Assembly: GCA_037382465.1 (NCBI GenBank)
Contig: JARRPX010000058.1
Span: 1 to 38,443, forward strand
DNA: 38,443 bases
Direction of reading: 5' to 3'
Source: Anaerolineales bacterium
GTDB taxonomy: Bacteria; Chloroflexota; Anaerolineae; Anaerolineales; E44-bin32
Shown here piece by piece: positions 2,626-13,890 of the stretch (positions are counted from its first letter, which is position 1; each line of letters begins with the position of its first letter). A program made the translations under genes and the position numbers. The notes under the pieces were generated by a model. The model saw only the letters and a program-made list of their open reading frames with translations. It searched no databases and was not told the DNA's origin.

Positions 2626-3450
2626 CTACATTTCTTCCAAACGTTCCATCTGCGTCTTGATCTTCTCGGCAGCCTGTTGGAACTCGACCAGCCTGTCTCT
2701 TTCTTTTTGAACGACGTCTCCGGGCGCACGTTCGGAGAACGGGCCGGCCAATAATTTCTCGAGACGTTCGATCTGGGAGTCGACCTCCGCGTATTCCTCG
2801 GTCAGACGCTCGCGCTCCGTTTCCACGTCGATGGCGTCTTCCAGCCTGAGATGCACTTCGACCGGACCGATCACCAGCGGAATCGCATCTGCCGGAGGTG
2901 ACGGTAAAACTTCGTGGACCTCCATCCGCCCAGGTTCGATGCCCGCCAGAGAAGCGACCGAATCCCGCTGTTCCTCCAGCATGCCCGCCATCGATCCGGC
3001 GTTGAACGTGGCTGCGATTTTCGTCTCGGGGGATATCCCCTGATCCGAACGGACGTTACGGATGGCACGCACGACGTCCATCAACAGATCGAAGCGGTCC
3101 ATCGTGTCCTTTTCCGCCTCCGAAATGGGATTCCGATGCGGCCATTGCGCCACGATGAGCGCACCTTCCCACGCCGAAAGAAAACCAAACCCACCGCCGT
3201 GTTCGAGGCAAGCTGCTTTCAGTTTTCCCCAGAGTTCTTCCGTCACGTACGGCGTAAAGGGGTGCAGCAGTCTCAGACAGGCATCCAGCACCTCGACCAG
3301 GACTCTGGCGGTGTGCCAGGCACGCGCGCCGCCCTGCCTCGCCTGCAGCTTCGCGATTTCGATGTACCAATCGGCAAATTCACGCCAGAAGAATTCGTAA
3401 ATCTGCCGTCCGGCTTCGCCGTATTGATAGGACGCAAAAAGCCTGTCCAC
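2626..3450 (-). CDS. valS: Valine--tRNA ligase, C-terminal part (out of frame with the N-terminal part)
   Basis: This frame encodes the anticodon-binding domain (YGEAGRQIYEFFWREF and DWYIEIAKLQ), the linker and the C-terminal coiled-coil tRNA-binding arm (about the last 70 residues, rich in Glu, Arg and Leu heptads). All of these are typical of ValS. It lies in a different frame from the upstream catalytic part, and the two overlap by 71 bases. The apparent GTG start at 3450 is probably not a true start: the codons just before it (LGRDVDRLF) still look like ValS, so the natural product is most likely one continuous protein broken here by an indel. See the N-terminal entry and the finding on this break. 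Confidence 0.8.
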   Translation of the reverse strand: MDRLFASYQYGEAGRQIYEFFWREFADWYIEIAKLQARQGGARAWHTARVLVEVLDACLRLLHPFTPYVTEELWGKLKAACLEHGGGFGFLSAWEGALIVAQWPHRNPISEAEKDTMDRFDLLMDVVRAIRNVRSDQGISPETKIAATFNAGSMAGMLEEQRDSVASLAGIEPGRMEVHEVLPSPPADAIPLVIGPVEVHLRLEDAIDVETERERLTEEYAEVDSQIERLEKLLAGPFSERAPGDVVQKERDRLVEFQQAAEKIKTQMERLEEM

Positions 3451-5251
3451 GTCCCTCCCGAGTGTCTCCGGTTTTCGACAACGTCATGATCACGAAACGG
3501 CCCGCGTTCCAGATTTTATTGGCGAAATTCCGGTTGGCCTCCACGCGTTGGAGACTGAGATTCATGTCGTTGCCGGGAGTCGAACCGGTGAGCATGGTGT
3601 ATCGGAGCGCATCGGTGCCGAATTCGTCCATGACCTCCAGAGGATCGATCACGTTTCCCAACGTTTTACTCATTTTCCGACCTTGCCCGTCGCGGACCAG
3701 GCCGTGCAGGTATACGGTTTCAAAGGGCGCGACGCCCGTGAACTCCAGACCCATCATGATCATCCGCGCCACCCAAAAGAAGAGGATGTCGTATCCCGTT
3801 TCCATCATCGTCGTCGGATAGAAGTAGCGGTAATCTTCGGTTTCTTCCGGCCATCCCAGCGTCGAGAAAGGCCACAAGCCTGAGGAAAACCATGTATCGA
3901 GTACATCGGGATCCTGCTCGATGTCCTTCGAATTACAGTGAGCGCATCGATCGGGATCGTCGCGTGCGACGGTTATTTCGCCGCATTCATTACAGTGCCA
4001 GGCCGGGATACGATGTCCCCACCACAACTGCCGGGAGATGCACCAATCACGGATGTTTTCCAACCAGTTGAAATACACTTTCGTGAAGCGCTCGGGCACG
4101 ATTTTCACCTCGCCCCGGCGTACGACTTCGAGCCCCTTTTCGGCCAGCGGCTTCATGCTCACGAACCACTGCGTGGAAACCATTGGCTCGACGATTTCCC
4201 CGCCCCGCTGCGAGCGGGGAACCTGCATTAAATACGGTTCCGTTTTGATCGTAAGCCCGGCCGCTTCCATGTCGGCCCACAATTTCTCGCGGCACTCGAA
4301 TCGGTCCATGCCTTGATAGGGACCGGCGTTTTCGTTCATCGTGGCATCCGGATTGAGTACGTTGATCACGTCCAGATTGTGGCGTTTGCCGATCTCGTAG
4401 TCGTTCGGATCGTGTCCCGGCGTGATCTTCAGCGCGCCGGTCCCGAATTCGATGTCCACGTAGCTGTCTTCGATCACCGGGATGAGACGGTTCAGCATCG
4501 GCACCACGCATTTCTTCCCCAGCAGATGCTTGTAGCGCGCATCTCCGGGATGCACGGCGACGGCCGTATCACCCAGAATCGTTTCCGGGCGCGTCGTCGC
4601 CACGGGGATGAAATCCTGCGAATCGGCGATGGGGTATTTGAAGTAATACAGCGTGCCCTGCTCCTCGGAATACTCCACCTCGAGATCGCTGACAGCGGTC
4701 TGCAGGCCTGGCGACCAGTTGATCAAGTAGGTCCCTCTGTAGATCAACCCCTTCTCGTAGAGACGCACGAAAGCTTCGCGCACCGCCTTCGACAAGCCGT
4801 TGTCCAACGTGAACCGCTCCCGGTCCCAATCACAGGAAGCGCCCAGGCGCCGCAGTTGCTGCGTGATGATACCTCCGTATTCCTTCTTCCATTCCCAGGC
4901 GCGTTTAACGAAGGCCTCCCGGCCGATCTCTTTACGGCTCGTGCCTTCTTTCCTGAGCATGCGCTCGACTTGAAGTTGAGTGGCGATGCCTGCGTGATCC
5001 GAACCCGGAACCCACAGCGTCGGTACACCCGTCATACGGCTGTGGCGAATCATCAGATCCTCCATGGTTACAAACATGGCGTGTCCCAGGTGCAGTTCGC
5101 CGGTGACGTTCGGAGGTGGAATGGAAATCACGAAAGGTTTCCGGTCCGGGTCGATGTGCGGTTTAAAAAAGCCGTTCGTCTCCCACCACGAATAGAGGCG
5201 TTCCTCCACTTCGTTGAAATCATAGGTTTTTGGAAGATCTTCGATTGTCAT
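3380..5251 (-). CDS. valS: Valine--tRNA ligase, N-terminal catalytic part
   Basis: This class Ia aminoacyl-tRNA synthetase charges tRNA-Val. The HIGH-type signature (PPPNVTGELHLGHAM) lies about 40 residues from the start. The editing domain follows (VATTRPETILGDTAVAVHP), then a zinc-type CNEC/CAHC pair and KMSKTLGN. The start at 5251 has AGGAGG nine bases upstream and begins MTIEDLPKTYDF; upstream in-frame codons belong to the T-box leader and are not coding. ValS identity is clear up to FANKIWNAGRFVIM. The remaining residues to the stop at 3380 are unlike ValS because the frame is lost near 3460. About 30 residues expected here, including the usual ADRW-type segment, are missing. Expression is under T-box control. 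Confidence 0.9.
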   Translation of the reverse strand: MTIEDLPKTYDFNEVEERLYSWWETNGFFKPHIDPDRKPFVISIPPPNVTGELHLGHAMFVTMEDLMIRHSRMTGVPTLWVPGSDHAGIATQLQVERMLRKEGTSRKEIGREAFVKRAWEWKKEYGGIITQQLRRLGASCDWDRERFTLDNGLSKAVREAFVRLYEKGLIYRGTYLINWSPGLQTAVSDLEVEYSEEQGTLYYFKYPIADSQDFIPVATTRPETILGDTAVAVHPGDARYKHLLGKKCVVPMLNRLIPVIEDSYVDIEFGTGALKITPGHDPNDYEIGKRHNLDVINVLNPDATMNENAGPYQGMDRFECREKLWADMEAAGLTIKTEPYLMQVPRSQRGGEIVEPMVSTQWFVSMKPLAEKGLEVVRRGEVKIVPERFTKVYFNWLENIRDWCISRQLWWGHRIPAWHCNECGEITVARDDPDRCAHCNSKDIEQDPDVLDTWFSSGLWPFSTLGWPEETEDYRYFYPTTMMETGYDILFFWVARMIMMGLEFTGVAPFETVYLHGLVRDGQGRKMSKTLGNVIDPLEVMDEFGTDALRYTMLTGSTPGNDMNLSLQRVEANRNFANKIWNAGRFVIMTLSKTGDTREGRGQAFCVLSIRRSRTADLRILLA

Positions 5252-5348
5252 TTGCCTGATTCCTCCTGCTACACACCGTTCAACTTGCCCGACGGAAGAT
5301 TTCTCGATCGACGCTGGTTTCCATGGATAGGTCCGTCGGCAGCGAATC

Positions 5349-5379
5349 AAAAAGCCCCTCGTCCTCGAGGACGAAGGAC
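5349..5379 (-). terminator. T-box terminator hairpin of the valS leader
   Basis: On the minus strand an 11-bp stem (5379-5369 with 5364-5354, including G-U pairs) closed by a UCGA loop is followed by five U residues (5353-5349). The 5' half can instead pair with GCGAGG just upstream of the T-box motif to form the antiterminator. Confidence 0.85.
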
Positions 5380-5630
5380 TTGACCTCCGCGGTACCACCT
5401 CGCTTCACCGGGCCAATTCGCCTGGCGCTCTCACTCCTCGACCAACATCGGGGATCCGCTGTAACGGGCTTACCCGCGCCGTTCTACTCACCTCTCAACG
5501 AGGTCTTCTTCGGCGTTCATCCCGGGCGACGTTCAACAGCTGCTGCCGTGGGGGCTTTCAGCCTGCGGCCGCTCCTTCTCTACCAGCGCCTGGCAGTTTA
5601 CTCCTCCCGGTGTTCGTGTATGAATTTGTG
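5349..5630 (-). ncRNA. T-box riboswitch, valine specific
   Basis: The minus-strand leader of valS carries the conserved T-box sequence AGGTGGTACCGCG at 5400-5388, just before the terminator/antiterminator pair. Stem I starts near 5605 with a lower stem CCGGG/CCCGG, then an internal loop with AGUA on the 5' side and GAACGUCGC on the 3' side. The triplet GUC at 5530-5528 fits the specifier position and encodes valine, in agreement with the downstream gene. Uncharged tRNA-Val is expected to stabilise the antiterminator and switch valS on. The family assignment is strong; the specifier triplet is read by hand folding. Confidence 0.9.
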
Positions 5631-5716: not shown

Positions 5717-8700
5717 TCATCTGAAATTGATCGTGGTTCTCTTTCCGTCACCGGCATTGCGGAATTTCAGCGGCACTCTGATCGTGAATGTACTCCCCTG
5801 TCCGAGTCTGCTCTCGACCTGAATCCTTCCGTTGTGTTGTTCAACGATCGATTTTACGATCGCCAGGCCCAGCCCCAACCCCTGCTCGTGGAACGCATCC
5901 GTAGCGCTGGTGCGGAAGAACTTCTCGAACAAGCGTGCCTGGTCTGCCGGCGCAATGCCAACTCCTGTGTCCGCCACGGCGATGATTTGATCTTCCTCGC
6001 TTTGTTCCGCTCGCACCACGACGCTTCCGTTCGCGGGCGTATACTTCAGCGCGTTGTCCACCAGATTCGATACCGCCTGGCGCAGCAGTCCGGGATCGGC
6101 GTCGACAGGCTGCATTCCGTCTGCCAATTCAACGTCGATGGCGATGCGTTTACTCACCGCCTGAGGACGGTAAGCATCGACCACATCCTTGATCAGCGCC
6201 TCGATGCGGATGCTCGATACGTTCAAACCCATGCCGGCCTCGATCCGGCCCAGATCGAGCAAGTTATCGACCAACTTACTCATGTGGTCGATACTCGTAA
6301 GGATCTTCTGTAAAAACTCATCCTGCTGTTCGTTTACGTCTCCGACCATGCTCAGCATGGTTGCATATCCGCGCATCAGCGTGAGCGGTGCACGCAGGTC
6401 CTGGCTGACCGTGGAAACGAACTCCGATTTCAGCGCGTCGAGCTTCTTGTAATGAGATACGTCCCATAAAACACAGATTCTTCCCGCAGGAACGCCATCC
6501 TCGGACCGAATATCCGTTATGGAAGCGAACATGATGCGCCCGGAATCCATTTCGATTTCCGCCGCATGTTCCGTTACACCACCGTCCAGCAGAAGCGTAC
6601 GCAGATCCGGGTTCCGGACGACTTCCGTCACGGGTTTCCCGAGACTTTCCCGTTCACCGGCGCCGAACAAACTTGCGGCTGCAGGATTGAGAAGAGAAAC
6701 CCGGCCCACGGAATCGACCATCATCACCGCCGCCGGCGTACCCTCCAGAACGGTAACGAGACGCATGCGCTCGTGCTCCGCACGTTGATACAAACGGACT
6801 TTGGTTATCGCTACGGCCAGTTGGTCGGAAAGGATGGATAGCAAATTGAGGGCATCCGGACTCATCACGTAGGGCGACCGATGGCCAAGCCAGAGAACGC
6901 CGACGAACTCATCTTCGTGTCTCATCGGCATGGCAGCCAGTGTTTCGATCGGTGCGTTCAAATCCGTGAGATCGAGGACCGCACCGGCGCGCGTAGGATT
7001 CTCCAGCACGAAACGTCCTCGGTGACTGGAAAGCGCCAGGACCTGCGGGTCCAATGCCGCCCAGTTGCCCGGATCGTCGCCCGCGGAGAAACCCAAAAGC
7101 CGGGGATCATCTTGTGCAGCTGCCAGCGCAATACGAACGTGATCGGCAGCGGCAATCTGCCGGATACCGTCCAGAATCGGATGCAGCATCTCTGTCAGGT
7201 CGAAGCTGGTGGAAAGCCGTTGACTGACGTCGAGCAGCAGCCCCATCTCATCCAGCCTGGCTTTCAGGCTGCGGCGCATCATCTCGAACGAGGAAGCGAA
7301 GCGGCCAATCTCGTCCTCGCCGTTTGCCGGCACAGGCTGATCGAGATTTCCGCGCGCGATCGACTGGGCCACCTGTGCCATCTTCCGCAAGGGATGCATC
7401 AAACGATGACTGATGAGGAAAACTGCGCAGAGGAGCACGACGCCCACCACGACCAGCCAGAGTCCGAGACGCAGGGAGATTTGGAGCGCCTGACGATGGA
7501 CCTCGCGCAGCGGAACGATGACGACGACGTGCCAGGAGTACTCTTCGATCGCCTCGTCGTAGACCAATTGTCGCGTGCCGTCTTGGGTATACTCGATGTT
7601 TACTGTGCCGCTCGTTTCAGGGTGAAGATTGAACTGGCGGTTTACCGGGCCGTTTTCGGGGCGAATCAAGACATCGCCCTGCTCGTCGGTGACGAATGCC
7701 GATCCGTACGAAAACTGGTCGAAACTCTGTACCAATGGCGTCAAGATGAGGTTGGATTCCAGGGAGGACCAGCCAACCACGACGCCGACCGCCTGGTCAT
7801 TTTCATCGGGGAGGATCGGCGTGATGAAAGCCATGCGGGCGCCTGCGCCCACAGCAGAACCAAACTCGATCGTTTCGGACGGTATGCCCCGCAACGCCGC
7901 ATTCAGGTTGGCCTGAAAGCCCTGGGAATACCCAGGCAGCTCCGTGGCTTCAGGATATGCGACTTCCAGACCGTGTTCACGGTCGTACACTTCCAGACTC
8001 TCGAAAAAGGTGTACGCGCGAAGAAGCTGATCCAACGGTTCTTCCGTCCAAGAACCGGAACCGAAACGGACGCCAAGATCTTCCGCCAACTGGCGGCTGT
8101 ATTCTCTGCCGGTGTGGACGAAAAAGGGGATGATGCCGCTGGCCTGGTTGGCGGTCTGCTGCATGTGCTCGGTGAGCATGGCACGCGCAGATTGTTCAGC
8201 CGAGACCCAATCTCCCATCAATATCACGCTGCTGGCGATAAAGCCGGAAAAAAGGAGAACTGCGCTCAAACGCACGGCCAACGATTGACCAAATCCCCGC
8301 GTGATACCTCGTCTCGGTTCGTACCAGATATTCACTGCCTGGCGTTTTATCAGTTCACAAAATGCGCCGCCGATCGTCACTTCGATGATCGCGGCCAATG
8401 CCGTCAGGCCGAGCAGCGAAAGAGTGATGTCTATCCTGCGGTACAGGTCACCTTGTGATGTGGTGAAGATGCCGATGCCTCGAAGGAGAGCATAAACTAC
8501 ACCGCTGGCCAGACCGCTGATGAACGGACTGCGAAACAATCGCCCCTGTAATCCGCCATCATCCCGCCGCATCAACCAGGCGGCAATTCCTGCCTGCAAG
8601 CCCATAAAAATGGGGGTGAGTACGCTGTACGTTTCGAAACCGCCGCGCGCCACCCCGGCGACGACACCGACGATGATCGCATCACGGATTCCCAATACTC

Positions 8701-9028
8701 CCCCGGCGAACAACCAGGGGATGGCGCCGAATATTGCCACGAAGGGTCCGCGCAGTTCTTGCGGAACGAAGGCCAGCGTTTCCGTTCCTGGTACGTGAAA
8801 ATGCAGCAAGAACGTGAGGCTCAGGATGGGGGCGACGACGAGTAAAAATGGAAGACGTGCCCAGAATCGTTCCTTAATTTTCTTCGATGTTGCCGGGACG
8901 TGCGACGGAGAGCGTATGTAGAATACGATCAACAATGCCAGCGCGGTTCCCCCGGCCAGATAACCGAGCAATGATGAGGGAAAGTTGAATTTCAAACTCT
9001 GGTCAAAACCCCACCAATCAACGGACAT
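5717..9028 (-). CDS. Large membrane sensor histidine kinase, phospho-acceptor His replaced by Gln
   Basis: This protein of about 1,103 residues has, in order: a multi-spanning N-terminal region reminiscent of LytS 5TM sensors (about 1-265), a membrane segment, an extracytoplasmic Cache-like sensor (about 285-520), a second membrane segment, HAMP (about 543-595), GAF (about 600-745), PAS (about 750-860), HisKA (about 865-930) and HATPase_c (about 975-1085). The ATPase boxes are intact (NLVDNALKYTP, DTGVGI, GLGLGL). The HisKA H-box reads STVSQDLRAPL, with Gln at residue 876 where the phosphorylated His should be (codon at 6401-6403). The ATG at 9028 is chosen because GAGG lies just upstream and the promoter is directly ahead. 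ATGs at 9061 and 9088 overlap that promoter. Confidence 0.9.
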   Translation of the reverse strand: MSVDWWGFDQSLKFNFPSSLLGYLAGGTALALLIVFYIRSPSHVPATSKKIKERFWARLPFLLVVAPILSLTFLLHFHVPGTETLAFVPQELRGPFVAIFGAIPWLFAGGVLGIRDAIIVGVVAGVARGGFETYSVLTPIFMGLQAGIAAWLMRRDDGGLQGRLFRSPFISGLASGVVYALLRGIGIFTTSQGDLYRRIDITLSLLGLTALAAIIEVTIGGAFCELIKRQAVNIWYEPRRGITRGFGQSLAVRLSAVLLFSGFIASSVILMGDWVSAEQSARAMLTEHMQQTANQASGIIPFFVHTGREYSRQLAEDLGVRFGSGSWTEEPLDQLLRAYTFFESLEVYDREHGLEVAYPEATELPGYSQGFQANLNAALRGIPSETIEFGSAVGAGARMAFITPILPDENDQAVGVVVGWSSLESNLILTPLVQSFDQFSYGSAFVTDEQGDVLIRPENGPVNRQFNLHPETSGTVNIEYTQDGTRQLVYDEAIEEYSWHVVVIVPLREVHRQALQISLRLGLWLVVVGVVLLCAVFLISHRLMHPLRKMAQVAQSIARGNLDQPVPANGEDEIGRFASSFEMMRRSLKARLDEMGLLLDVSQRLSTSFDLTEMLHPILDGIRQIAAADHVRIALAAAQDDPRLLGFSAGDDPGNWAALDPQVLALSSHRGRFVLENPTRAGAVLDLTDLNAPIETLAAMPMRHEDEFVGVLWLGHRSPYVMSPDALNLLSILSDQLAVAITKVRLYQRAEHERMRLVTVLEGTPAAVMMVDSVGRVSLLNPAAASLFGAGERESLGKPVTEVVRNPDLRTLLLDGGVTEHAAEIEMDSGRIMFASITDIRSEDGVPAGRICVLWDVSHYKKLDALKSEFVSTVSQDLRAPLTLMRGYATMLSMVGDVNEQQDEFLQKILTSIDHMSKLVDNLLDLGRIEAGMGLNVSSIRIEALIKDVVDAYRPQAVSKRIAIDVELADGMQPVDADPGLLRQAVSNLVDNALKYTPANGSVVVRAEQSEEDQIIAVADTGVGIAPADQARLFEKFFRTSATDAFHEQGLGLGLAIVKSIVEQHNGRIQVESRLGQGSTFTIRVPLKFRNAGDGKRTTINFR

Positions 9029-9059
9029 CTGCGCCTCGGAGGAAATAAAGACTTCGAGC

Positions 9060-9088
9060 ATTATAGCATCCTGGATTCGCGATTCCAA
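9060..9088 (-). promoter_or_regulatory. Promoter of the large sensor kinase gene
   Basis: Read on the minus strand: TTGGAA (9088-9083), 17 bases, TATAAT (9065-9060), with TGC just before the -10. Transcription would start near 9053, which rules out starts at 9088 and 9061 and supports the ATG at 9028. It is back to back with the promoter at 9109. Confidence 0.8.
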
Positions 9089-9176: not shown

Positions 9177-10154
9177 ATGGCAGAAAAGATACTCATCATC
9201 GATGATGACGTCGATACCCTGAAACTCGTGGGCTTGATGCTCGAACGCCATGGGTATGAGATCGTTGTTGCGAGCAATGGAGCCCTGGGTATCGAACGGG
9301 CCAAAGAAGATACTCCACAGCTCATCCTGCTCGACATCATGATGCCGGACATGGATGGGTATGAAGTCACACGCCGACTGCGAGCCGATCCCGCACTGGC
9401 ACACATCCCGATCATCATGTTCACTGCAAAAACCATGGTCGACGATAAAGTCGCCGGTTTCGAGGCGGGCGTTGACGATTACTTGACTAAACCGACTCAC
9501 CCGGCCGAACTGACGGCGCACATCAAGGCCGTTCTCGGGCGAGCGACTCAAACCCAGATCGCCAAGCCCGAGAGGGCCAGAACCATCGCCTTTTTGGGCG
9601 CACGCGGCGGCATCGGGACGTCAACGCTCACTTTGAACGCCAGCATCGCACTGCAGCAAGAAGGCGATGATGTGATTTTTGCAGAACTCAATCCCGGTCA
9701 CGGAACGGTGGCTCTCGTGGAAGCGGTCGTCACCAATCTGGCGTCAATGTGCACCACCGTCGTGCTTGACCTCGGCTGCTCGATGCGCCCGTACGTCAAA
9801 CCGATATTGAAAATGTGCGATTGCCTGATCCTCGTGGTAGAACCGATTTTCCCGTCCAACATACTCGGAAGATCGCTGCTTCAGGAACTTTCCAGCGACG
9901 GGATCCAGCGCGATAAGATTTATCTCGCCCTGATCAACCGGGTTCGTTCTAGCATGCAGATACCATGGCGCCAGGTTGAGACCGAGATCGGTCTCGAGTT
10001 GGCCGGAATCGTTTCCCCCGCGCCGGATTTAGCCTATCAGGCTTCCAGCGGCTCGACGCCCCTGTTGCTCGCCCACCCGGATAGTCTCGTTTCAGATCAA
10101 ATACGCAAGCTGTCGAAGTTTCTTACCCAGCGCCTCGAACGTGTCGTGAGTTGA
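9177..10154 (+). CDS. Response regulator receiver fused to CpaE/TadZ-like ATPase
   Basis: Residues 1-120 form a complete receiver domain: acidic pocket IDDDVD, phospho-acceptor Asp53 in LLDIMMPDMDG, the conserved Thr in MFTAKT, and Lys in LTKP. Residues from about 135 form a ParA/MinD-superfamily domain of the CpaE/TadZ type, which in other bacteria helps position Tad pilus machinery at the pole. The nucleotide loop reads GARGGIGTSTL, so both Lys residues of a deviant Walker A are absent, as in many CpaE relatives. The domain is short. The segment between LNPGHGTVAL and VTNLASMCTTVVLDLG lacks roughly 60-70 residues that relatives carry. No Tad pilus genes are in the window. Its stop overlaps the start of the sirtuin gene. 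Confidence 0.85.
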   Translation: MAEKILIIDDDVDTLKLVGLMLERHGYEIVVASNGALGIERAKEDTPQLILLDIMMPDMDGYEVTRRLRADPALAHIPIIMFTAKTMVDDKVAGFEAGVDDYLTKPTHPAELTAHIKAVLGRATQTQIAKPERARTIAFLGARGGIGTSTLTLNASIALQQEGDDVIFAELNPGHGTVALVEAVVTNLASMCTTVVLDLGCSMRPYVKPILKMCDCLILVVEPIFPSNILGRSLLQELSSDGIQRDKIYLALINRVRSSMQIPWRQVETEIGLELAGIVSPAPDLAYQASSGSTPLLLAHPDSLVSDQIRKLSKFLTQRLERVVS

Positions 10155-10942
10155 GCCGCGTCGTGAAGCTTGATGATCCCGAGAGTCTCCTCCAAAGGGC
10201 GATTTCGCTTCTTAAAAACTCAAAACATACCGTTGCGCTTACCGGAGCAGGGATATCGACGCCCTCGGGGATTCCGGATTTCCGTTCCGCCCATTCCGGT
10301 TTGTGGAAACGCTACGATCCGATGGAAGTGGCTTCGCTGATGGTCTTTCGACACTCTCCCCAAAAATTTTACGAATGGATCCATCCTCTGGCCCAACAAA
10401 TCCGGGACGCCACGCCCAATCCTGCGCACGTTGCCCTGGCGCGTCTCGAGAGAGCCGGCTATCTGGACGGCATCATCACACAGAACATCGACGCACTTCA
10501 TCATCGAGCAGGATCACGAGTCGTCCTCGAACTTCACGGGCATCTCCGTCAAGCGATGTGTGTTTCCTGCTACGAAGTCTACGATACAGATGGCATCATG
10601 GAAGACTTCATTCGAAGCGGAGAGGTCCCGCGCTGCGTAAAATGCGGCGGCGTCCTGAAGCCCAACGCCGTCCTGCTCGGAGAACAGCTGCCCTACGAGG
10701 TTGTCCGATCCGCAGAAAAACTCCTGGCGAACTGTGAATTGATGATCATCGCCGGCTCGTCGCTCCAGGTTGTCCCCGCGGCCACATTACCGATACCGGC
10801 GCTAAATGCCGGGGCGAAACTGATCATCGTCAACCATACGCCTACTTACCTCGACGAGCGTGCGGACGTCGTCATTCACGGCGATGTGGAGACCGTTCTA
10901 CCTTATCTTGCAGATGGAGTACTGGGTAAAGATCATGAGTAA
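10151..10942 (+). CDS. cobB: Sir2-family NAD-dependent protein deacylase
   Basis: This is a 263-residue sirtuin. Visible motifs are GAGIST (NAD site), GIPDFRS, TQNIDALH, the catalytic His in LELHGH, a zinc site from CVSC and CVKC, and GSSLQVVPA. It removes acyl groups from protein lysines using NAD. The chosen TTG start overlaps the preceding stop (TTGA), which gives translational coupling; a GTG at 10163 is a possible alternative. Placement between a response regulator and a histidine kinase in one coupled operon is unusual and suggests a link between lysine acylation and this signalling pair. That link is inference. The symbol is given for the family only. Confidence 0.9.
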   Translation: MSRVVKLDDPESLLQRAISLLKNSKHTVALTGAGISTPSGIPDFRSAHSGLWKRYDPMEVASLMVFRHSPQKFYEWIHPLAQQIRDATPNPAHVALARLERAGYLDGIITQNIDALHHRAGSRVVLELHGHLRQAMCVSCYEVYDTDGIMEDFIRSGEVPRCVKCGGVLKPNAVLLGEQLPYEVVRSAEKLLANCELMIIAGSSLQVVPAATLPIPALNAGAKLIIVNHTPTYLDERADVVIHGDVETVLPYLADGVLGKDHE

Positions 10943-12152
10943 ATCACGTTCAGCAAAAGACGAATCGGCAATTCGCAACTATCCACGGTTGCTGAAACGC
11001 TATGCGCGTCTTTTAGACGTCAGTTCGGAGCTGGTTTCCACGCTCGAGCAAGGCACGCTGCTGCAGCATATTGCCGAAGTTGCCCGTGAGTTGACGACCA
11101 GCGAGGCTTCTTCGATCTTGTTGTACGATCCGCAGACCAATCATCTGTACTTCGAAGCGGCGACGGGGCCTTTGAAAGAGGGTTTCATCCGCTCTGCCGT
11201 GCCGACGGACACCAGCATCGCTGGTTGGATTTTTTCAAATCGCGAACCTTTGCTCGTCGAGGATACGAAGACCGATTCGCGCTTCTTCGCCGACATTGAT
11301 TTACAAACCAACTTCCTTACCCGCTCCATCCTCGGCGTTCCATTGCAGACCAAGGACAAAACCATCGGGGTAATCGAGGTTCTCAACAAAACCCAGGGAA
11401 CCTTCGTCGAAGACGACCAGCTGATCCTGCGTTCGCTGGCCGCCCAGGCGGCGATTGCCATCGAGAACACGCGTTTGTTCCAACAAAGCGACCTGATCGC
11501 CGAGATGGTTCACGAGCTGCGTACACCGCTCGCCTCGCTCCTGGCGGCCGCCCATCTCCTCCAGCGGCCGGATCTTCCCGCCGAGCAAAACACGAAGCTC
11601 AGCCAGACCATATTCTGCGAAGTACAGCGCCTGAACGACATGACGACGGATTTCCTGGAACTGGCGCGCCTGGAATCCGGTCGAGCGAAATTCGAACGGG
11701 AACCGGTCCATCTCGAAGGTTTGATCGTGGAATGTCTGGAAATCGTTCGTCCCCAGGCGGACGAACGAAAAATCGCGTTGAAAACCGATTTCGACCGCAG
11801 CCTCACTCCGGTACAAGGTGACCGCAATCGATTAAAACAATTGGTACTGAATCTGCTCACCAACGCAATCAAGTACAACGACCCGGGTGGCAGCGTGATG
11901 GTATCCCTGCAGCGTGAAAACGGATCGCTCGTATTTTCTGTGGAAGACACCGGCTGCGGCATCCCGAAAGAAAGTTTGCCGCATATTTTCGAACGTTTCT
12001 ATCGTGTACCGGATCAAGAAAAGGACGTCAAAGGTACGGGATTGGGCCTGGTGATTGCCAAACGCATCGCCCGCAACCATCATGGAGATATCGAAGTCGA
12101 AAGCGAAATGGGGGAAGGAAGCACCTTCAGACTTAGACTGCCGATTCCCTAA
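10935..12152 (+). CDS. Soluble GAF-domain sensor histidine kinase
   Basis: This 405-residue protein has no membrane segment. A GAF domain (about residues 30-185) is followed by HisKA with an intact H-box (VHELRTPL, His193) and a HATPase_c domain with NLLTNAIKYN, DTGCGI and GTGLGL. The start ATG lies inside the end of the sirtuin gene, an 8-base overlap (ATGAGTAA), so translation is coupled. The natural partner is the receiver protein two genes upstream. It may also supply the His that the neighbouring large sensor kinase lacks, but this is only a suggestion from position. Confidence 0.9.
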   Translation: MSKSRSAKDESAIRNYPRLLKRYARLLDVSSELVSTLEQGTLLQHIAEVARELTTSEASSILLYDPQTNHLYFEAATGPLKEGFIRSAVPTDTSIAGWIFSNREPLLVEDTKTDSRFFADIDLQTNFLTRSILGVPLQTKDKTIGVIEVLNKTQGTFVEDDQLILRSLAAQAAIAIENTRLFQQSDLIAEMVHELRTPLASLLAAAHLLQRPDLPAEQNTKLSQTIFCEVQRLNDMTTDFLELARLESGRAKFEREPVHLEGLIVECLEIVRPQADERKIALKTDFDRSLTPVQGDRNRLKQLVLNLLTNAIKYNDPGGSVMVSLQRENGSLVFSVEDTGCGIPKESLPHIFERFYRVPDQEKDVKGTGLGLVIAKRIARNHHGDIEVESEMGEGSTFRLRLPIP

Positions 12153-12183: not shown

Positions 12184-13890
12184 TCAACCTCTGCGGCCGA
12201 ACTGGCGCTCGAGTGCGTCGACGGAAAGATGGATCATCGTCGGACGGCCATGTGGACAAGTTCGTGGCGCAGTACAACTTTCTAGATCGCGGAGCAGTTT
12301 CTGCTGCTCTTCCATGGAGAGCACCTGGCCCGCTTTGATCGCTGCGCGCTTGCAGGCTCGCGCGGCCAACCTCGCCTCCGTTTCCTTCGCCAGGGGGGTT
12401 TCATCTTCTTCAAAATCTTCCACGACGGATCGAATGATCCGTTCGGGATCGGCACGAACGAACATCGCAGGAATGGCTCTCAGCCTGTACGTCCGCTGCC
12501 GCAGCACTTCGGATTGATTTTCGAGGAGATCGCTTTGCTCGATGCTGAGGGTCACCACCAGCGGTTCAAGCAGAGTTTGCACCTCGACCTGATTCTCTTC
12601 GTACGCCCGCATCAACGCTTCGAACAACACGCGTTCGTGTGCCGCGTGCTGATCGACCAGATAAAGCCCATCCGGGCCTTCAGCGACGAGATACGTGGCG
12701 CCGATCTGGCCTACGGCTCGCAGCAGCGGTAAATTGCCCACTGGCAGGGCGGATTGAAGCCGGATTCCGCCGCCCACATCCTGCGCGTCCACCAACTGCT
12801 GTGTAAGCTGCCAATCGCTCTGGACCTCCGAATCTGATTCCAGCCAGGAGCCGGACACCGAAGCTCCCAATCCGAGCGCAGGAGACGGCGCTTGACCCAA
12901 TAAAGTCGATCGGACGACTCGCTGGACCACCGAGAAAACGACATCCTGCTCCCGAAAACGCACCTCCGCTTTGGCGGGGTGTACGTTCACGTCGACCATA
13001 TCGGGTGGAAGATCCAGGAACAGAACCGCCATTGGATATCGCCCGACCATGAGCAGCGCATGGTAGGCCTGAACCACAGCGGCAGAGAGACTGGCATCCT
13101 GCACCCAACGCCCGTTTACGAAAAACGTCAATTCCCTTCGATTGCCGCGATGGATCGACGGCGGACTTATGAAGCCCCGGATTTGGAACGGCGTCCGGCT
13201 GTTTTCCGGAATGGCGATCAATTCTCTTGCCTTCTCCACGTCGTAGATCGCCGCCAATATTTCTCTGCGATCTCCCTTTCCGGAGCTCAGGAATGTTTCC
13301 CGCCCCTCCTGCGTGAGTTTAAAACGCACCTCGGGGTAGGCCAGTGCATAGCGTGTCACCAGGGCGGAAATCCGCCTGCGTTCCGTATTTTCGGATTTGA
13401 GGAACTTCCTGCGAGCGGGAACGTTGAAGAATAGATCGCGGACTCGCAGAGTCGTGCCTCGGGGTGCACCCACAGACTGCACCTCTCCCGCCTGGCCGCC
13501 ATCCACGATCAACCGGCTTCCCGCTGCCTCCCCGGCCGTTTTCGTCACCATTTCGAGCCGCGAGACCGCACCGATGGATGATAATGCTTCACCCCGGAAG
13601 CCGAGGCTTTGAATTGCAAATAGATCTTCAGCCGTGCGCAGCTTCGATGTTGCGAAGCGGGCAACCGCCAGTGGTACTTCCGAGCGAGGTATGCCAACGC
13701 CGTCGTCGGAGACCTCGATCAGGCCGCTTCCGCCGCGCTCCACCTTGATCTCGATCGAACTTGCAGAGGCATCGAGCGAATTTTCTACCAACTCCTTGAC
13801 GACCGAAACCGGCCGTTCGACCACTTCGCCGGCGGCAATGGCGGAGGCGACATCTTCGGGTAAAATCTCGATAGGCATTGAAGTCTTCAT
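12184..13890 (-). CDS. mutL: DNA mismatch repair protein MutL (endonuclease type)
   Basis: The 568-residue protein has the GHKL ATPase motifs of MutL (ELVENSLDA, DDGVGI, FRGEALSSI) and a C-terminal domain carrying the metal-dependent endonuclease motif DQHA-x2-E-x4-E near residue 410, plus ACKRAAIKAG and CPHGRPT. It should nick the new strand during mismatch repair with MutS, as in bacteria lacking MutH. The start at 13890 lacks a ribosome site. A -10 element lies 12 bases ahead, so the mRNA may be leaderless. The ATG four codons in (13878) is an alternative. The gene ends convergently with the GAF kinase, 31 bases apart. Confidence 0.95.
   Translation of the reverse strand: MKTSMPIEILPEDVASAIAAGEVVERPVSVVKELVENSLDASASSIEIKVERGGSGLIEVSDDGVGIPRSEVPLAVARFATSKLRTAEDLFAIQSLGFRGEALSSIGAVSRLEMVTKTAGEAAGSRLIVDGGQAGEVQSVGAPRGTTLRVRDLFFNVPARRKFLKSENTERRRISALVTRYALAYPEVRFKLTQEGRETFLSSGKGDRREILAAIYDVEKARELIAIPENSRTPFQIRGFISPPSIHRGNRRELTFFVNGRWVQDASLSAAVVQAYHALLMVGRYPMAVLFLDLPPDMVDVNVHPAKAEVRFREQDVVFSVVQRVVRSTLLGQAPSPALGLGASVSGSWLESDSEVQSDWQLTQQLVDAQDVGGGIRLQSALPVGNLPLLRAVGQIGATYLVAEGPDGLYLVDQHAAHERVLFEALMRAYEENQVEVQTLLEPLVVTLSIEQSDLLENQSEVLRQRTYRLRAIPAMFVRADPERIIRSVVEDFEEDETPLAKETEARLAARACKRAAIKAGQVLSMEEQQKLLRDLESCTAPRTCPHGRPTMIHLSVDALERQFGRRG

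Follow-up and report, generated by a model that had tools for sequence, protein, structure and literature searches.

DivL of Caulobacter has the HisKA-HATPase fold and PAS domains, with Tyr550 at the site of the phosphorylated His; it binds a response regulator, has no autokinase activity, and binds ATP poorly (PMC4211667). RocA of group A Streptococcus, a membrane sensor-kinase homologue, regulates the true kinase CovS and has no need of its own His; it retains this dispensable residue (His246) and lacks several residues of the ATP-binding CA domain (PMC7028121). The ChrS pseudokinase, a laboratory-evolved, kinase-dead sensor with a frameshift in its CA domain and its His preserved, signals through a partner kinase (PMC9491836). 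Such pseudo-histidine kinases are infrequent, as 722 of 76,471 HisKA domains (0.9%) have no phosphorylatable His (PMC12632262). Among solved structures, the closest cores to the protein discussed here are those of HK853 of Thermotoga maritima (PDB 2c2a, 3dge; E about 1e-37), in which His260 of the H-box is the phosphorylated residue (PMC5727384).

The window, the whole 38,443-nucleotide stretch of an Anaerolineales contig that was analysed (JARRPX010000058.1), encodes a large membrane sensor kinase that is probably another pseudo-histidine kinase. With DivL it shares the fold, the PAS domain and a non-His residue at the His site. It differs in having Gln rather than Tyr, conserved ATPase boxes, and a membrane-bound Cache sensor half, whereas DivL is an alphaproteobacterial protein with a role in the cell cycle. 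It was rejected as a DivL orthologue in view of the Gln, the Cache-HAMP-GAF-PAS architecture, and the presence of its own orthologues throughout its order. In contrast to RocA and ChrS, it has lost the His and kept an intact CA domain.

The ORF is 1123 amino acids long as annotated, beginning with TTG at 9088; an ATG at 9028 (Met21) is the likelier start, because orthologues align from about residue 17–20. Its HisKA (PF00512) and HATPase_c (PF02518) matches are both essentially full-length and score 65.7 and 106.1 bits against cut-offs of 26.9 and 26.4. No NCBIfam equivalog scored above its cut-off against this protein or the soluble kinase encoded nearby. The coordinates of the domains and of the neighboring genes are given in Table 1.

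Table 1. Features of the sensor-kinase locus, in window coordinates
Feature	Position	Strand	Basis or remark
Membrane sensor (pseudo-)histidine kinase: N-terminal hydrophobic region, dCache, HAMP, GAF, PAS, HisKA, HATPase_c	5717..9088	-	
HATPase_c (CA), residues 998-1108	5765..6097	-	Pfam E 1.7e-30; N, G1, F, G2, G3 boxes intact
HisKA (DHp), residues 887-952	6233..6430	-	Pfam E 4e-18
CAG codon, Gln896, at site of phosphorylated His	6401..6403	-	Translation and HK853 alignment
PAS, residues 777-830	6599..6760	-	Pfam
GAF, residues 630-761	6806..7201	-	Pfam
HAMP, residues 558-609	7262..7417	-	Pfam
dCache-like extracytoplasmic sensor, residues 306-523	7520..8173	-	42 bits, slightly below curated cut-off of 45
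REC domain fused to CpaE/ParA-like ATPase region (REC-CpaE), divergent from sensor kinase	9177..10154	+	
Sir2-family protein, divergent cluster	10151..10942	+	
Soluble GAF-HisKA-HATPase kinase	10935..12152	+	His193 (codon 11511-11513), HELRT box; ORF opens at 10860
mutL, end of conserved cluster	12184..13890	-	

The H-box of the large kinase reads SEFVSTVSQDLRAPLTLMRGY. The minus-strand codon 6403-6401 is CAG in the assembly consensus, and when the protein was compared with solved structures by phmmer the resulting Gln896 paired with the His of the H-box ISHELRTPLT in HK853. The two proteins have the same DHp-CA architecture, and Gln and Ala in the window kinase stand where HK853 has His260 and Thr264 (PMC5727384). 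By this alignment and the Pfam match, the Gln896 H-box is a true HisKA site and no chance match to a motif, as the original prediction had it in proposing that Gln replaces the phosphorylated His. The protein thus lacks the phosphorylatable His of a HisKA sensor histidine kinase and, on the consensus sequence and pending confirmation from reads, is a HisKA-type kinase without a phosphorylation site.

The Gln896 domain is the sole His-less one among about 47 HisKA domains in the genome; the other 46 family matches, read residue by residue, all carry His. When the H-box was searched for at the DNA level in 201 genomes of the order (pattern VS?[DE]LRxPLT), it occurred with a His codon in 176 and with a Gln codon in the window kinase only. 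The one match in the order with a first codon base other than C (G058, L331) was discarded, its ORF not being a kinase. A comparable search across the class (396 genomes), again with Gln in the pattern, matched the window and one spurious, non-kinase ORF (G277, L123), which was likewise rejected. None of about 67 other HisKA domains lacked His in the genomes for which a kinase census was made. A scan of genome contigs with the single protein returned distant kinases only, including DivL-like Tyr kinases of Bosea, and the orthologue was absent from the matches.

The orthologue itself occurs almost throughout the order, with a match at E < 1e-88 in 156 of 201 genomes, and is vertically inherited, since the gene tree tracks taxonomic families. 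About 153 distinct orthologues, one per species, were read; approximately 144 have the His and nine do not. The His is absent on five branches. Besides the window Gln, these are a Lys in G009 (L054), from the same family as the window kinase; an Asn in G034 (L264, f9); a Gln in G538 (L253, f8); and an Asn in genus g257 (f15), present in all five species compared (L221, L228, L229, L231, L254), which form one clade. Both a FastTree tree of 155 rows and an IQ-TREE mixture-model tree of 56 rows require five changes away from His, and the losses on the five branches are by this reconstruction independent events. G034 and G538 lie on long branches in the gene tree; they were accepted as orthologues because the gene order agrees. 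The G034 locus has the divergent REC-CpaE and mutL, and that of G538 has the order cmk-kinase-rpoC-gyrA, which is seen in further families too (gene names from ORF reading). About 6% of species are therefore affected in a single vertically inherited gene (five lineages, ~153 orthologues), compared with 0.9% of HisKA domains generally (PMC12632262). Five events in 155 rows exceed that published frequency with p about 0.016, a post hoc value for rows that are not independent. In another genus of family f15, g27 (L098, L233, L257), the His is present and the acidic residue next to it is itself a His (SHHLKNPL in L098); this long-branch variant may be a step toward loss of the phosphoacceptor.

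The nearest relatives of the window kinase all carry His, the closest genus compared being a sister genus, and Gln is common to no near relative compared; as a clade trait it was rejected. The original prediction had treated a lone change amid His-bearing homologues as evidence against it, and for the Gln this is what was found within the data compared. The same comparison disclosed independent loss of the His in four other lineages of the orthologue, including the entire Asn genus.

With Gln896 known from a single metagenome-type assembly, the quality of the consensus has to be considered. The genome's only copy of valS (2626-5398, minus strand) has a ~60-nt out-of-frame deletion relative to relatives, with its junction at about 3425-3450. 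Because cells cannot do without ValS, this deletion probably reflects a fault in the assembly. REC-CpaE lacks, in frame at residue 180, 57 amino acids that are present in 19 of 19 relatives, and mutL lacks 10 amino acids at residue 464 that relatives carry. These deletions suggest either consensus faults or an unusual strain. The remaining H-box residues are identical to those of the sister genus, and so perfect a flank implies that the change to Gln either arose recently or reflects an error in the consensus. A single C-to-G or T-to-G difference would be enough to turn CAC or CAT into CAG, in which case a consensus error or a mixture of strains would conceal an ordinary histidine kinase. The sensor-kinase ORF itself, however, has none of the gaps found in its neighbors, and faults of the deletion type do not predict substitutions. 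A random substitution in exactly this codon is, moreover, very improbable in comparison with a real loss, which has occurred in ~3% of orthologue lineages. Error at this base is consequently unlikely, while still deserving some weight.

Apart from the His, the catalytic core is intact in sequence. All 16 near-invariant HATPase positions are unchanged, with the N, G1, F and G2 boxes in order, and so are the 19 conserved HisKA positions besides the His, which bears out the original description of the rest of HisKA and the ATPase boxes as intact. Unique changes in the window kinase and the sister genus number 4.8 and 2.4 in HisKA and 12.9 and 9.7 in HATPase, so the core is not accelerated; nor is the GAF-PAS region. 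A core that is neither accelerated nor violated means that the loss is young, or that the core has been kept, or that the base is wrong. The sensor half (residues 1–610) has accumulated changes at roughly double the rate of its counterpart in the sister genus (121 vs. 61.5 unique changes, p 1.5e-5). Along with the absence of Gln from the near relatives compared, this rate is what a kinase that was inactivated lately and is now decaying, with no role as a pseudokinase, could be expected to show. Such decay is nonetheless a rather unlikely account of the gene, given that the ORF is full-length with no frameshift, that GAF, PAS and CA are as constrained as in the sisters, and that in the Asn genus strong constraint continued after the His was lost.

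In the Asn genus that constraint was measured as dN/dS. Its five genomes contain 3–5 HisKA proteins each, and in all five no HisKA protein other than the orthologue is His-less. Pairwise dN/dS within g257 is 0.013–0.027 for HisKA and 0.07–0.10 for HATPase, matching the range of His-bearing control pairs (0.017–0.045 and 0.037–0.16). As judged by these ratios, an Asn version unable to phosphorylate His is kept under strong purifying selection, and hence non-phosphorylatable versions of the sensor are kept functional. The core of the Lys-bearing G009 protein is accelerated, with 15.8 vs. 4.2 unique changes in HisKA and p about 0.001 for the core. The earlier proposal that selection retains nucleotide binding without the His thus holds for genus g257 by dN/dS, and for the window kinase it is an inference from an intact ORF and an unaccelerated core, purifying selection having been measured in g257 only. 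With this basis the window protein is presumably functional and still able to bind ATP.

In the family of the window, the loci read have the kinase divergent from REC-CpaE, which is followed by the Sir2 gene (absent in some), the soluble kinase and mutL. The divergent arrangement is found, complete or in part, in families f2, f4 and f9, and in G034 (f9) the Asn kinase still lies opposite REC-CpaE. Elsewhere in the order, many families have the kinase away from REC-CpaE, for example near cmk and rpoC, which limits any assignment of partners to the window's family at best. Pfam matches the REC domain over its full length. As originally described, the soluble kinase has a normal His193 (numbered from the ATG at 10935), and all 20 of the aligned family rows retain it. 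The pathway can therefore be phosphorylated without the large sensor, which by its gene position is placed to modulate it. The Sir2-family gene sits between the response regulator and the soluble kinase in most family loci, and REC-CpaE has a Walker-A-like motif, GARGGIGTST, without the usual lysines.

Our preferred reading, to which we assign a probability of roughly 0.5, is that the gene encodes a natural pseudo-histidine kinase that signals by contact with a partner, probably the REC-CpaE/Sir2/soluble-kinase module. By the established chemistry of HisKA, replacement of the His by Gln896 would prevent autophosphorylation on His and the donation of phosphate to a response regulator. The signal would be passed instead through a conformation of the DHp-CA core, dependent on nucleotide and on the sensed signal, that binds the partner. 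Gene order points to the divergent REC-CpaE protein as the likeliest partner and, through it, to the soluble kinase with its normal His. Signaling by contact would be analogous to that of DivL (PMC4211667) and RocA (PMC7028121). The conserved CA domain, unlike those of DivL and RocA, leaves room for gating by nucleotide or for phosphorylation of a partner in trans.

Phosphorylation in trans would make the protein one half of a heterodimer, whose intact ATPase acts on the His of another kinase. The CA domain is intact in both the window kinase and the Asn genus, and ChrS forms heterodimers with HrrS in vivo (PMC9491836). A paralogue with a normal His is encoded elsewhere in the genome (C13:68414-69883; 37% identity over residues 609–1104 and 49% in the core). 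The neighboring soluble kinase (L019) has a core identity of only about 32%, which is low for heterodimerization, and we regard the arrangement as improbable with either partner. The original prediction also allowed for a phosphatase, which here would act on REC-CpaE, the divergent neighbor. The His is dispensable for HisKA phosphatase activity (PMC12632262), but the Thr or Asn that bifunctional enzymes have four residues beyond it is replaced by Ala900, at a site where most of the orthologue family has Ser or Ala and few members have Thr or Asn. Phosphatase activity is lost in HK853 T264A and in EnvZ T247A (PMC5727384), and with Ala in this position a role purely as a phosphatase is very hard to credit.

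Contact signaling might also extend beyond the lineages that have lost the His. It is conceivable, if doubtful, that the main task of this sensor throughout the order is free of His phosphorylation even in species that have the His, the DHp-CA core being a nucleotide-gated contact module that can lose its His repeatedly while the gene persists, and that several lineages, g257 among them, now use wholly without phosphate.

Pseudo-histidine kinases are known mainly from single cases such as DivL and RocA. What is added here to the initial observation of one Gln is the recurrent loss of the His in one orthologue, together with a genus in which the Asn form is constrained. The five branches all have close relatives that bear the His, and they offer a natural series on how a kinase functions without phosphorylating and on the reason for retaining ATP binding. 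The Asn genus of family f15, whose genomes encode few kinases and whose His-less core is strongly constrained, is a cleaner object for this question than the window kinase itself.
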